DNA of 64,000 bases from Variovorax gracilis. GTDB lineage: Bacteria > Pseudomonadota > Gammaproteobacteria > Burkholderiales > Burkholderiaceae_C. A program made the position numbers and the translations under genes. Where the stretch lies: contig NZ_JASZYF010000028.1 in NCBI RefSeq assembly GCF_030317115.1, positions 1 to 64,000 of the forward strand. Direction: 5' to 3'. This document shows, piece after piece, positions 7,132 to 22,255 of the stretch. The notes under the pieces were generated by a model that was not told where the DNA came from, searched no databases, and worked only from the letters and a program-made list of their open reading frames with translations. Every line of letters starts with the position of its first letter. The first letter of the stretch is position 1.

Positions 7132-7452
7132 ATGCCGATGCAACTACTCGAGCGCCTCAACTGCGCTCAACTTCCGATGGACATCGACGAGGATGACGAC
7201 ATTGAAAAATGCCGGGTGCTTCGTGCTGCCAGGCTCATAGAGGCGGATATCCCACCCGTCCTGCATCTGCGAGGCCGAACCAGCTATGCTGGGCATGCCA
7301 CTGTGATGTGCGTGACTGCGAGCGGCAAGGCAGCGGCGGGAACGCGCAGCCGCGCGCTGGCGGGTTTGGCGGGTTTGGCGGGTTTGGCGGACAACTTTCC
7401 TCGAACCGTCAAATCGGTGGAACCGTCGCGCAAACCGGCCCCGGGCGACTAA
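7132..7452 (+). CDS. Hypothetical protein with acidic N-terminus
   Basis: 106 residues. The start ATG at 7132 follows AGGAG with 5 bases between. The first 65 residues read like a conserved small protein (MPMQLLERLNCAQLPMDIDE, then KCRVLRAARLIEADIPPVL and a segment ending VMCVTASGKAA). The C-terminal third is low-complexity and contains a 9-base tandem repeat that encodes LAG three times. The opposite strand is also open here, but its frame has no plausible start signal. Function unknown. Confidence 0.5.
   Translation: MPMQLLERLNCAQLPMDIDEDDDIEKCRVLRAARLIEADIPPVLHLRGRTSYAGHATVMCVTASGKAAAGTRSRALAGLAGLAGLADNFPRTVKSVEPSRKPAPGD
7359..7390 (+). repeat. 9-bp tandem repeat, about 3.5 copies
   Basis: Unit ggcgggttt at 7359-7367, 7368-7376 and 7377-7385 plus a partial copy. 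Being a multiple of three it changes length, not frame (LAG repeats), in the hypothetical protein at 7132-7452. Confidence 0.85.
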
Positions 7453-14975: not shown

Positions 14976-15308
14976 TTAAGCCCATCCCTGCCGCCACACG
15001 GCCGGGTGAGGGGTCAGCGCGCACGAAATGCGGCTTGAGAACAACCGCGCCGGCGAAGCGACGCTGATCGGTCGAATGCCTTTGCAATGCGCCTTGATCA
15101 CCTTCTCGTCCAGGCCCTTGATCAACGCTTTGAGCACATCGGTGTGCTTGGCGATGCCCACCTGCGAGCCAGAAAGCATCTTCTTGAGTTTCGCGTTGGT
15201 GGCTTTGGGCGCAATTTTCTTCAACGCCTTGGCCATCTGGTCGTTGGCTGACCAGAGATCTTTCAGCTCATCTGCGTAGAGTTCTTCCAGGCTGGAGTTT
15301 TCGGACAT
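14976..15308 (-). pseudogene. Truncated DUF892 (YciE/YciF ferritin-like) protein
   Basis: The first 78 residues match the start of YciE/YciF-type stress proteins (SLEELYADELKDLWSANDQM, then AKALKKIAPKATN and KAHCKGI), which form a four-helix diiron-like bundle of about 165 residues. After CKGI, where the family continues with MEGLxxEG, the frame runs into unrelated sequence and stops at 110 residues, so two of the four helices are lost. I found no continuation in the other frames. The start ATG at 15308 is normal. Confidence 0.7.
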
Positions 15309-19081: not shown

Positions 19082-19534
19082 TCAGTCCACGTAGTCCACC
19101 AGCAGCAGCGAAGCCGCACGCAGGAACGCGAGCTCGCACGGCTTGACTTCGCAGCGGTCCATGTCGAAGTGGGACAGGATGCCGCACGCGGGCCCACCGC
19201 CCGCCGGCCGCAGGACCAGCCCGCAGTACGAGAGGATCGGGCTGTCGAAGGGCTTGAAGCGACGATCCTGGCTGCAGTCCGAGGAGACGAAGTCGCCGCG
19301 AGCCAGGGTGAGCCGGCCCAGCTCATTCAGAAGCAGGGCGCTGTGCAGGTAGGCGCGGTTCTCGCCGCAGCGATCAAAGACACACACGGGGTGCAAGGCG
19401 CCGTCGCGGACCCTGTGCAGCGCCGTGTAGCGGAAGCTCGTTCGATCGTTCAGCAGTTCCAGCGCCGAGGCCAGGCCGTGCTGCAGACGCGCCTTGAAGG
19501 CCAGCAGCTGGTCCTCGAAGGGAATGTCGATCAT
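19082..19534 (-). CDS. GAF-like sensor protein, last gene of CheB-like operon
   Basis: 150 residues: MIDIPFEDQLLAFKARLQHG, then FRYTALHRVRDGALHPVCVF, HSALLLNELGRLTLARGDFV and SYCGLVLRPAGG. The alternating strand/helix pattern with a central SYCGLVL and a terminal helix suits a GAF-type ligand-binding domain, but typical GAF signatures are weak, so this is fold-level inference. The ATG at 19534 overlaps the TGA of the 73-residue gene by one base (TGATG). No output domain is present. Confidence 0.65.
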   Translation of the reverse strand: MIDIPFEDQLLAFKARLQHGLASALELLNDRTSFRYTALHRVRDGALHPVCVFDRCGENRAYLHSALLLNELGRLTLARGDFVSSDCSQDRRFKPFDSPILSYCGLVLRPAGGGPACGILSHFDMDRCEVKPCELAFLRAASLLLVDYVD

Positions 19535-19755
19535 CAGGCTCGCCGCGACCAGTCGCCGAAGGCTTCCCGGATCGAGTCGCCCGCATCGCGCTCGTCGACG
19601 TGCCTGAATCCCCTGACGACCTCGGCGCACTCGTCGGCGACGAGCAAGCCGAAGTCCCGCAACCGCAGGGGCAGCGCGTCCCCGGGCTGGATCAGCATCG
19701 CCGCCGTGGCGCAGCGCACGAAGATCTCGTCTGCCGTTTCGATGGGGATGGCCAT
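19534..19755 (-). CDS. Hypothetical 73-residue protein in CheB-like operon
   Basis: Starts MAIPIETADEIFVRCATAAM and contains LRDFGLLVADECAEVVRGFR. Strong ribosome site GGAGG 6 bases before the ATG at 19755. Predominantly helical, no signal peptide or TM. It lies 22 bases after the CheB-like gene and overlaps the GAF-like gene by one base. Unknown function; possibly a binding partner of the CheB-like protein. Confidence 0.7.
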   Translation of the reverse strand: MAIPIETADEIFVRCATAAMLIQPGDALPLRLRDFGLLVADECAEVVRGFRHVDERDAGDSIREAFGDWSRRA

Positions 19756-19777
19756 GGCTGCCTCCGATCTGTTGCTT

Positions 19778-20350
19778 TCACCCTTCGACCAATGCCGCGA
19801 GCAGCGGCGCGATGGCATCCAGTGGCGCGACGTACGGCAGGGGGTGGTGATGCGGCGCGTGCCGCGGCGGCGCCGCGACGTCAGCCTCGTCCGGGGCCTG
19901 GACCACCGCCACGCCGGCGGCCTCCTCGATCGCGCTCATGCCGAGCCTTCCTTCGCCCGCACAGCCGGAGAGCAGCACACCGATGACGCGCTGGCCGCAC
20001 ACGGCCGCCGCGGAACTGAACAGCCGGTCAACCGGGCCGTCCCCGGTCGATGTCGCCTCCGGATCGTCTACGCCCATGACGCCTTCCGGCCGGATCACGA
20101 GAGCCAGGCCCGCCGGCGGCAGGTATGCATGGCCCGCGCGCCCGAACCGCCCTTCGCACGCATAGCTCACCGGCATGGACGCGCAGCTGTCCATGATGCG
20201 AACGAGCGTTTGCACGCTTTGGGCATGGGTGCGCTGCGCCACCAGGATGGGGGCCTGGAAGGTCACGGGCAGTGCCTTCAGGATCGTCGACAGCGCGGCC
20301 AGGTCGCCCTCGGCGGCGCCGACCACCACGAGGTCGCGGCGCGGGCTCAT
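19778..20350 (-). CDS. CheB-methylesterase-like protein lacking the catalytic triad
   Basis: 190 residues with the CheB C-terminal domain layout and no receiver domain. True CheB has a nucleophile in GxSxGG, a histidine in VxQH and an aspartate in GxxxDGxxGM. Here the first block is VVVGAAEGDLAAL (Ser replaced by Ala13), the second is ILVAQRTHAQS (Arg aligned with His), and the third is LLSGCAGEGRLGM (Glu where Asp is expected). By eye all three catalytic positions are changed, so it is probably a non-enzymatic CheB fold used for binding. The ATG at 20350 overlaps the upstream gene by 4 bases. Family call is firm; loss of activity is inference. Confidence 0.75.
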   Translation of the reverse strand: MSPRRDLVVVGAAEGDLAALSTILKALPVTFQAPILVAQRTHAQSVQTLVRIMDSCASMPVSYACEGRFGRAGHAYLPPAGLALVIRPEGVMGVDDPEATSTGDGPVDRLFSSAAAVCGQRVIGVLLSGCAGEGRLGMSAIEEAAGVAVVQAPDEADVAAPPRHAPHHHPLPYVAPLDAIAPLLAALVEG

Positions 20351-20598
20351 AGGCCGCTGCCACCTCGGCGAGGTGCGCCGTATCGCCAATCGGAGTGAGG
20401 GGTCGCAACGTCGATGTCGTAGGTCTCGCGAACGGCCTCGAGCGCGTCAACCACCAGCCGATAGGCGTCGCGCCGTTGCGCTGGTCCGGCGGGAGGCTTG
20501 CCGTGCCCTCCCGGAGTGCTCAACGAATCGTGGAGGCGCTCGCAGGCCGCCGCGAACGCGAGCGCCGCGCGCACCTGCGAAGGCGAAGCCTGGGCCAT
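20347..20598 (-). CDS. Hypothetical 83-residue protein, first gene of CheB-like operon
   Basis: Starts MAQASPSQVRAALAFAAACE; helical N-terminus, a Gly/Pro linker, then RLVVDALEAVRETYDIDVA. No recognised domain. Its stop overlaps the CheB-like start (ATGA). AGAGG precedes the ATG closely. An AT-rich patch (gagatagaaaatatagc, about 20660-20676) lies 60-80 bases upstream and is the likely promoter area, but no clean -35 is seen. Confidence 0.6.
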   Translation of the reverse strand: MAQASPSQVRAALAFAAACERLHDSLSTPGGHGKPPAGPAQRRDAYRLVVDALEAVRETYDIDVATPHSDWRYGAPRRGGSGL

Positions 20599-20721
20599 AA
20601 CCTCTGAACCGTTGGGGATCCACGTCTTGAAATCCCGGTTTCGGTCGCCGCTTCAAGGGGAGATAGAAAATATAGCACCGCACCCCCAATCTATCCACCG
20701 CCACGGCGGCTTCGAGGGTAC

Positions 20722-21111
20722 TTATCGGAACCGCTTGCTGAACTCGCGCACCACCCCCACCACCCTGGCGCCATCCAGCGGCTTGATCGGGTAGCGCGCA
20801 TTGAGCGGCTTCAGGTACAGGTCGCCGCCATCCTTGACGAGTTGTTTGAAGGTGGTCGCTCCATCGCCGCTGAGCGCGATGACATAGTCGCCCGGCACGG
20901 CGGCCAGTTCGGGTTCCACAACGATGATCGAACCAGGTGGAAACGAATCGCCCGCTTCGCTCACCATGCTGTCGCCCCGGACGGCGAGCGCGTAGGTATG
21001 GCGCTTCACCGGCACCGACACGGGCACCGTGTCGAACCTCCCCTTGGGCTTGAAGTTGTCGATGACGGTGTAGTCGCCGGCCTCGCCGGCGAAAGAGCGT
21101 TCGCGAGTTGA
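20722..21111 (-). pseudogene. Stand-alone S24 (LexA/CI-type) peptidase domain without DNA-binding part
   Basis: An open frame of 130 codons starting directly after an in-frame TGA (21114-21112). It holds a complete S24 domain: EAGDYTVIDNFKPKGRFDT, the nucleophile in RGDSMVSEAGDSFPPG, and the lysine in TTFKQLV, ending REFSKRFR. The self-cleavage-type Ala-Gly pair (EAG) is at its very beginning, and the helix-turn-helix half is absent. The first possible start codons are GTG at 21027 and after, which would cut into the domain. Either a truncated regulator or a peptidase fragment expressed from GTG. Its 5' end overlaps that of the divergent paralogue at 21108. Confidence 0.6.
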
Positions 21112-21707
21112 TCACCGAGGGTCGCCAGACGCTCGCCATGAGTGTCGGCACGTTTGCACGGGCGGCGGGCGTGACGCGGGCCGCAGTGCAGCACTGGGAG
21201 CGGCCCGGTGGCACCTCTCCCAACCGCAGCCACCGCCCGGCCGTCGCGCGGCTGCTCGGCATGTCGGTCGAGGAGTTTCTCTCGGGCGGTCCTCAACCCA
21301 TGGACAGATGGCGGCGGCGTGGCGTTTGGCTGTTGTCAGCAGTAGAGGCCGGCGGCTTTGCCCACATCGACAACTTCGGCCCTCACAGCGAATTGGAGAC
21401 CGTGCTCGTCACCGTCGACGTTCAGCGGCGGACCTTCGCGTTGCGCGTTCACGGTGAGAGCATGCGAAGCAAGGGCGTGAATTCGTTTCCGCCAGGGACC
21501 ATCGTCGTGATCGAGCCAGACATGAAAGCCCGCCCAGGCGATTTCGTGATCGCCCAGAACAGGGAGAAGCAGGCCACGTTCAAGCAACTGGTAGTGATCA
21601 AAGAGGTGTTCTGCCTGAGGCCGCTCAACAAGCGATTCAAGACTCGGCCGCTGGGCGACGGCGTCATCATTGGCGTTGTGCGGGAAGCGATCTGGCACCT
21701 TCGGTAG
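21108..21707 (+). CDS. XRE-type repressor with S24 self-cleavage domain
   Basis: 199 residues from TTG at 21108; no better start exists, since the frame is open back only to 21066. N-terminal helix-turn-helix at about residues 8-60 (LAMSVGTFARAAGVTRAAVQ and LLGMSVEEFLSGG), a linker with Ala-Gly at 81-82 (VEAGGFAHIDNF), and a S24 domain with Ser118 (VHGESM) and Lys159 (ATFKQL). This is a CI/LexA-like regulator inactivated by self-cleavage. It is paralogous to the divergent S24 fragment at 20722, and no prophage genes surround it. The TTG start and missing family-typical upstream residues suggest its 5' end was also disturbed. Confidence 0.8.
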   Translation: MITEGRQTLAMSVGTFARAAGVTRAAVQHWERPGGTSPNRSHRPAVARLLGMSVEEFLSGGPQPMDRWRRRGVWLLSAVEAGGFAHIDNFGPHSELETVLVTVDVQRRTFALRVHGESMRSKGVNSFPPGTIVVIEPDMKARPGDFVIAQNREKQATFKQLVVIKEVFCLRPLNKRFKTRPLGDGVIIGVVREAIWHLR

Positions 21708-22255
21708 ACAGATCGACCGGCCGGCCGGCGCTCAACGGCTCTTGCTTTCGTTGGAGCTTTGTCACCCCGTCGTAGCTGCCACATCGCTGATGGACCGCCA
21801 AGCCCGTACGGCCCGTTCGGACGCGGCCTTTTCGCTCCTGGGCTCAGGGACGCACTGGTGCTCGGCCTGCGACTTCTTAGGAACGTTGCCGATGACGGAT
21901 TCTGTCAGCCGCGGTGATTCGCAGGAAATGAAGGGCGCCAAGCACGAGGCGTAAGGAATGACGGAGACGGCCGTCATGATCCGCCTCAATCGCCGGGAGC
22001 GCCTCAGGCTGCACCCTGATACGAGCGCAGACGCGGAGGTAGTTTCCATCAGACCCTGTTTGTCTTCACCTTCGCTGCTCGATGAAGGATCCCGCGCATT
22101 GACAGGCGGCGTGTCATTGGCGCGGTCGAGGGTCGCGTCGAAAATGCTTGTCAGGGTCGCCCCCGAGTTCACATACTGGACGATGCGCGACTTCGCGAAC
22201 GCTGGTGACGCAGGCCCGACAGAGGCGCTGTCCTTGGAACAACCGCGGAGATGAG
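21708..22255. other. Intergenic stretch, nothing supported
   Basis: 548 bases; frames on both strands are without codon bias or motif. It contains the ribosome site GGAG (22247-22250) for the epoxide hydrolase. Confidence 0.4.

Follow-up and report, generated by a model that had tools for sequence, protein, structure and literature searches.

On balance, we think it probable that the four-gene operon described here is variable, stress-inducible cargo of a cassette governed by an HTH-S24 (LexA/CI-like) repressor, and that one of its products carries a CheB fold that is non-catalytic. What can be read by sequence is the layout of the cassette, a shared predicted site, the loss of the catalytic triad within a constrained clade, the repeated loss of gene B and the retention of gene D; that S24a binds, represses and cleaves itself, that stress induces the cargo, and what A, B, C and D each do biochemically are what we infer. 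The operon lies in a stretch of 64,000 nucleotides (the window) from the genome of a Variovorax host, G000, of 7.8 Mb in 104 contigs. Along the window, the operon and its upstream region comprise:

19082..19534, minus strand: gene D, 150 aa, a divergent member of a family of small GAF-like proteins
19534..19755, minus strand: gene C, 73 aa, from a family without a Pfam match above its cut-off
19778..20350, minus strand: gene B, 190 aa from ATG, a receiver-less CheB methylesterase domain with the triad changes S-A, H-R and D-E
20347..20598, minus strand: gene A, 83 aa, from a small family with the consensus WEAACERLHNAL..P
20662..20695, minus strand: predicted control site (promoter/operator) for the operon, GATAGA-N20-TTTCTATC enclosing a TATATT
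20722..21027, minus strand: S24a fragment, the C-terminal S24 peptidase part of an HTH-S24 regulator that has lost its HTH (Pfam Peptidase_S24, 2.7e-17)
21085..21091, no strand: deletion junction, with 442 bp lost relative to locus L109, including the 5' ends of both divergent S24 genes
21108..21707, plus strand: S24b, a divergent HTH-S24 regulator missing about 24 N-terminal residues relative to L109 (Pfam Peptidase_S24, 2.4e-14)

All four open reading frames named in a preliminary description of this DNA are present on the minus strand. The same description had them joined by overlaps, and this holds for two of the three junctions, with A and B sharing 4 bases and C and D a single base; between B and C there is instead a gap of 22 bases (19756-19777). 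Codon scores in frame are 36.1 for B, 18.6 for C and 38.8 for D. The score for A is 4.6, close to the 4.4 of its own antisense frame, and A is supported by relatives that lie directly behind the same regulator site in genomes G091, G064 and G024, with further relatives in G070 and on contig C51 of the host genome. The view that some of these proteins stand outside any family can no longer be held, since A, C and D each have relatives beyond the operon. Weak matches to A and C in family genomes (mostly E 0.001-0.05, and often short stretches of larger frames) are not counted as relatives, except for those A and C matches that were individually aligned; a match to C in family genome G198 has E 9.6e-5.

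No chemotaxis family, whether of chemoreceptor, CheA or CheR, occurs among the 25 Pfam families listed, of 71, for the 45 other genes of the window. Two kinases are encoded elsewhere in it, one hybrid and one with a GAF domain. The idea of a defence system was dropped, as A-D gave no PADLOC match at E <= 0.01. A plasmid origin was also rejected, in a search that covered A, C and D: A (P0001) had no plasmid match, C (P0003) had one weak match (E 0.02) and D (P0004) matched seven plasmid records at 29-33% identity. Elsewhere in the window, at 14976-15308, is a DUF892 protein (Pfam 1.9e-12) that covers only positions 1-75 of the 159 in the profile.

What recurs from place to place is an upstream HTH-S24 regulator together with a predicted operator, a unit that is absent from the preliminary description. 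The regulators are best seen in G054 (Variovorax sp. J2P1-59), where S24a (205 aa) and S24b (229 aa) are full-length and divergent and each combines an HTH with an S24 domain; locus L109 and contig C12 of G054 carry an identical S24a gene. The truncated window copy of S24a no longer has both parts in one protein, and matches residues 86-205 of the full-length S24a of L109 at 96%, while 170 of 199 residues of the window S24b are identical to L109. The junction is defined by the correspondence of window 20569-21085 to L109 5978-5459 and of window 21090-21709 to L109 5016-4397, and the 442-bp gap opens at S24b codon 24 and closes at S24a codon 85. These two truncated S24 genes are the only matches to S24a in the host genome at E <= 1e-20. 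Because S24a and S24b of the window are without their 5' ends, the operon is predicted to be constitutive or otherwise controlled; it is probably unrepressed, and has kept its predicted site without a recognisable cognate repressor.

At E <= 1e-20, orthologues of S24a are found in 17 of 100 genomes of the genus, the truncated window copy counted. Full-length S24a proteins have an Ala-Gly pair in 18 of 19 cases, and all 19 carry the GDSM Ser and the TFKQL Lys; we take the Ala-Gly pair to be the cleavage site and the Ser and Lys to be the catalytic residues. Outside the genus, two S24a orthologues were found among 260 family genomes (E <= 1e-40). Both keep the upstream site, and neither locus has the exact downstream site or this cargo, G299 having a degenerate look-alike.

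The predicted site at 20662-20695 is the sole match to its pattern in the window, lies between S24a and A, and was found in none of 100 shuffles. The TATATT inside it could be a -10 box, and some of the GATAGA signal may come from a -35 box instead of one half of an operator. At 20 S24a loci from 17 genomes, TTCTATC stands 31-33 bp before the S24a start in 15, GATAGA falls within 50 nt behind the S24a stop in 17, and the full pattern GATAGA-N17-22-TTTCTAKC follows the stop in nine (the window plus eight others). For random stretches of the same loci, with the real sites left in, the share containing GATAGA is 2.5% (60 nt), that containing TTCTATC 1.0% (45 nt) and that containing the full pattern 0.7% (120 nt). 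Across whole genomes, 12 of 17 S24a-positive genomes contain the full pattern compared with 3 of 17 S24a-negative genomes, the latter chosen by hand and not at random, and the total is 19 sites against 4 for a reversed control. The positive genomes account for 15 sites. Thirteen of them are no more than about 100 bp from an S24a gene (for the window, from the S24a fragment), and one more, on contig C21 of the host genome, lies beside the last bases of an S24a gene. The last, G000:C9:65046-65078, is 124 bp before the gene for a 167-aa protein with the motif DLAQLPDDEL, relatives of which (74-81% identical) are found beside the cassettes of G002 and G023. Among the four sites in negative genomes, one is behind an S24a remnant (G024); the other three, two inside a LysR-type gene (G005, G008) and one in G005 with no S24a nearby, are taken as chance matches. 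Several of these counts weigh against the cassette reading: the exact downstream pattern is absent from 11 of the 20 S24a loci, three of which are without even GATAGA, no exact site is found in 5 of the 17 S24a-positive genomes, and the four reversed-control matches mean that the pattern also arises by chance. The possible -35 role of GATAGA and the two loci outside the genus weigh against it as well.

The genes behind the site vary. Besides the three A-family cases given above, a second small family (78-88 aa, 33-67% identity) occupies this position in G044 and G045, and its members also come second in G091 and follow S24a in G014. In G002 and G054 the remnants preserve the order S24a-A-B-(C)-D. 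G035 carries a triad-less CheB gene (A-D-N at the triad columns) and S24a in divergent orientation with a site between them, which links the triad-less clade to this regulator independently; that this pairing is seen in one of 20 neighbourhoods counts against the cassette reading. A small protein without a Pfam match, encoded at window 7132-7452, belongs to a recurring small family: it is 47% identical to one behind S24a in G037 (L186), and L113 and L181 encode further relatives.

We picture the cassette as follows. In its fuller forms, divergent S24b and S24a genes lie ahead of the A-B-C-D positions. S24a would bind GATAGA/TCTATC half-sites both at its own promoter and at the promoter just behind its own stop codon, silencing its own gene and the cargo together; stress would make it cut itself at Ala-Gly, and the cargo would be released. 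Self-repression and stress release are proposed by analogy with PrlP and IrvR. Among the cargo proteins, B would be a non-catalytic binding domain, D a GAF-like ligand-binding protein, and A and C small accessory proteins.

How well is the four-gene set itself conserved? Four copies were found in the genomes sampled: that in the window, a nearly identical second one elsewhere in the host genome, and what is left of it in two other Variovorax species (G002 and G054). The duplicate (G000:C21:65379-66535; L111 7307-8545) has 95-98% DNA identity and is missing window bases 19671-20116 (446 bp), a loss that destroys B and the start of C and leaves A and D open. On contig C9 of G002 we find S24a, a remnant of A, a 36-codon start of B, and then C and D intact (81% over 68 aligned residues and 82%, respectively, compared with the window), and in G054 S24a, a remnant of A, residues 50-71 of B, no C, and an intact D (78-79%). 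D is thus intact in all four copies, A and C in two each, and B in one, with different breakpoints in its three broken copies. A search of all later loci gave no further copy of the operon, and a conserved four-gene module is not supported: among the loci examined, the window, C21, G002 and G054 are the only places where at least two of A-D occur side by side in one copy. The idea of a module built around the CheB fold is not supported by these counts either. Gene-order conservation had been proposed as a check, with its absence outside this genome as grounds for refutation, and the outcome comes close to that: the intact set is found in the window genome only, at a single place, which weighs against the cassette reading too.

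The remnants in G002 and G054 nevertheless point to an A-B-C-D order that predates the divergence of the three species, and a comparison of these copies shows B to be the most dispensable of the four genes. Over the stretches that were compared, the cassette sits between different neighbours in the three species, and the similarity of the window DNA to G054 and G002 has its two limits a few bases at most from the D and S24b stop codons; together, these sharp edges and differing neighbours suggest that the cassette moves as a block. S24a is intact and B broken in G054 and G002, in contrast with the window, where the regulators are broken and B is intact, a difference that may be due to chance given the few loci. 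The dN/dS values for D are 0.21 (window-G002), 0.16 (window-G054) and 0.25 (G002-G054). For C the window-G002 value is 0.40, and comparison with a standalone paralogue at G000:C1:1157839 (66% identity) gives 0.26 for the window and 0.14 for G002. The two copies of A in the host genome have too few differences for selection to be judged.

This record of loss could also be that of a decaying locus, in which B and A are functionless relics that still read through in the window because too little time has passed since their loss, and D alone works. B is broken in three of the four copies at differing points, A and C are each broken or missing in two of four, and the regulators are broken in the window itself, which speaks for decay; set against this, the window retains four open genes with their 4-base and 1-base junctions, codon scores for B, C and D are clear, and the triad-less relatives of B elsewhere are constrained. 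We regard simple decay as unlikely, and prefer the reading of the operon as regulated cargo.

Within that cargo we place most weight on D, which has been retained more persistently than any other part. D itself has no Pfam match, and 6 of 17 scanned members of its family (D included among the 17) match Pfam GAF, the best at 4.6e-7; because of these matches it probably binds a small ligand. The D-family profile finds 4zmu, a diguanylate cyclase, with an E-value of 0.0096. D does not have the Cys that the family shows in its consensus SFCQFV, and a single-sequence AlphaFold2 model of D was uninformative (pLDDT 38). This model and D's own lack of a Pfam match are counted against the cassette reading.

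Protein B matches Pfam CheB_methylest at 2.2e-33, its residues 8-183 covering positions 1-173 of the 174 in the profile, and aligns to the CheB structure 1chd (4e-11). In the CheB structure of P. atrosepticum the triad is S165-H191-D287 (PMC7698151). The corresponding blocks of B, compared with genuine CheB, read GAAEGD, AQRTH and AGEGR, replacing Ser by Ala, His by Arg and Asp by Glu. A 65-row alignment allowed the triad columns to be compared with those of a genuine CheB from the host genome (L005), which bears out the preliminary description in that all three catalytic residues are lost. A receiver domain is absent from B, the CheB domain beginning at residue 8 of 190 in a longest open frame of 222 codons. 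B is most likely a non-catalytic CheB fold that acts as a binding domain. Titles and abstracts of the open-licence literature searched contained no triad-less CheB family, which is no proof of its absence from print.

Is the loss of the triad peculiar to B? More than 300 CheB matches were listed, and the best 30 loci per search were taken by similarity to window B, a choice that favours its clade. The window protein takes up three of the 65 rows of the resulting tree. L005 was put in manually, whereas the tree leaves out the broken copy (L004/L006), matches shorter than 110 residues of the query, and L034, L035 and L142. The row for window B has a long branch (2.08) and was flagged by the tree program as unsure in place. 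It falls in a clade of 26 rows (support 100/97), or 24 distinct proteins with the window copies counted once, of which 22 are without at least one triad residue and 16 without the serine. Window B belongs to an inner clade (support 96/93) of 12 distinct proteins, all of them without the serine and not one with an intact triad. Triads are intact in the 28 family-search loci (of 29 newly fetched) that are in the tree. All 24 members of the outer clade come from one genus in this similarity-based sample, and the restriction to that genus is a property of the sample.

The same genes appear to be maintained. NG86 dN/dS values in nine CheB pairs range from 0.09 to 0.39, a span that applies also to the eight pairs in which both members are triad-deficient; three of these nine pairs share L015-L017, three have dS > 0.8 and one includes an intact member. 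Given 22 deficient members of 24 and the low dN/dS of the deficient pairs, we take triad loss to be common to the clade and its genes to be constrained; the members do not look like dying genes. The question raised at the outset, whether homologues share the triad loss, is thereby answered, and the earlier suggestion that a methylesterase fold has been reused gains support, the fold seemingly having been reused without catalysis under purifying selection in the triad-less clade.

The neighbourhoods of these genes bear on a possible partner. Of 23 fetched, 20 were examined, L152, L155 and L166 being left out (the CheB gene is present in each and was not called). A short response-regulator-like gene, recognised by eye, lies beside the CheB gene in 3 of the 20, larger kinase-like proteins of one cluster are encoded within three genes of it in 4 of the 20, and the other neighbours are variable. 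In two loci (L158 7615-7640 and L159 6897-6922) the triad-less CheB gene overlaps the end of a short response-regulator-like gene by 26 bases, an overlap that depends on the start picked by the gene caller.

B might still serve the chemotaxis or kinase machinery in signalling or binding, as a decoy that sits on CheB docking sites and does not demethylate, with D and the small proteins as co-factors. The retained CheB fold, the constraint on the triad-less clade, the response-regulator-like and kinase-like neighbours, and the presence of a genuine CheB (L005) in the same genome are all consistent with such a role; yet the clade neighbours are otherwise variable, B has no receiver domain, and B has been lost in three of four copies while D was retained. 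We consider this role quite improbable for the operon. More speculatively still, Variovorax might have a family of catalytically dead, receiver-less CheB proteins that act as decoys or docking domains, some of them under LexA-like S24 repressors through a shared operator, so that stress would free a pseudo-methylesterase that resets or blocks receptor adaptation; this we hold to be very unlikely. Least probable of all is an altered active site in B with new chemistry rather than loss of chemistry. Seven CheB relatives (L007, L009, L010, L012, L015, L016 and L017) do show a possible alternative site: their His column holds Asp, and in the third block, (S/T)HDG, the Asp comes straight after a His. 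Window B, however, reads A, R and E at the triad columns and has no His-Asp pair.

These results record a set of CheB-fold proteins in one genus from which catalytic residues have gone although selection still acts on them, and the triad-less clade offers a ready test case for non-catalytic roles of the CheB domain. The predicted operator and the layout, with an HTH-S24 gene, a site behind its stop and small cargo, would also group uncharacterised Variovorax genes into one regulon.

Finally, each part of the cassette can be set beside a known system. B resembles CheB (PF01339; 1chd, 1a2o, 6ymz) in aligning over the whole methylesterase domain, and differs in having no receiver domain and in the replacement of Ser, His and Asp alike. 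D is related to GAF proteins (PF01590) through the six family members that match GAF, and differs in having no such match itself. S24a resembles phage CI-type repressors, matching PHROG phrog_4 (transcriptional repressor) at 4.4e-36 over residues 5-199, whereas a PHROG match at E <= 0.01 is lacking for the cargo proteins A, C and D. A further parallel lies in the stress repressors PrlP of Streptococcus suis (PMC12273997) and IrvR of S. mutans (PMC7101444), LexA-like HTH-S24 proteins that cleave themselves at Ala-Gly under stress. S24a shares with them the HTH plus S24 architecture, the Ala-Gly pair and the Ser and Lys residues; it differs in having its own predicted site, in many loci also behind its stop codon, and variable small cargo, and in the window copy also in the loss of the HTH.
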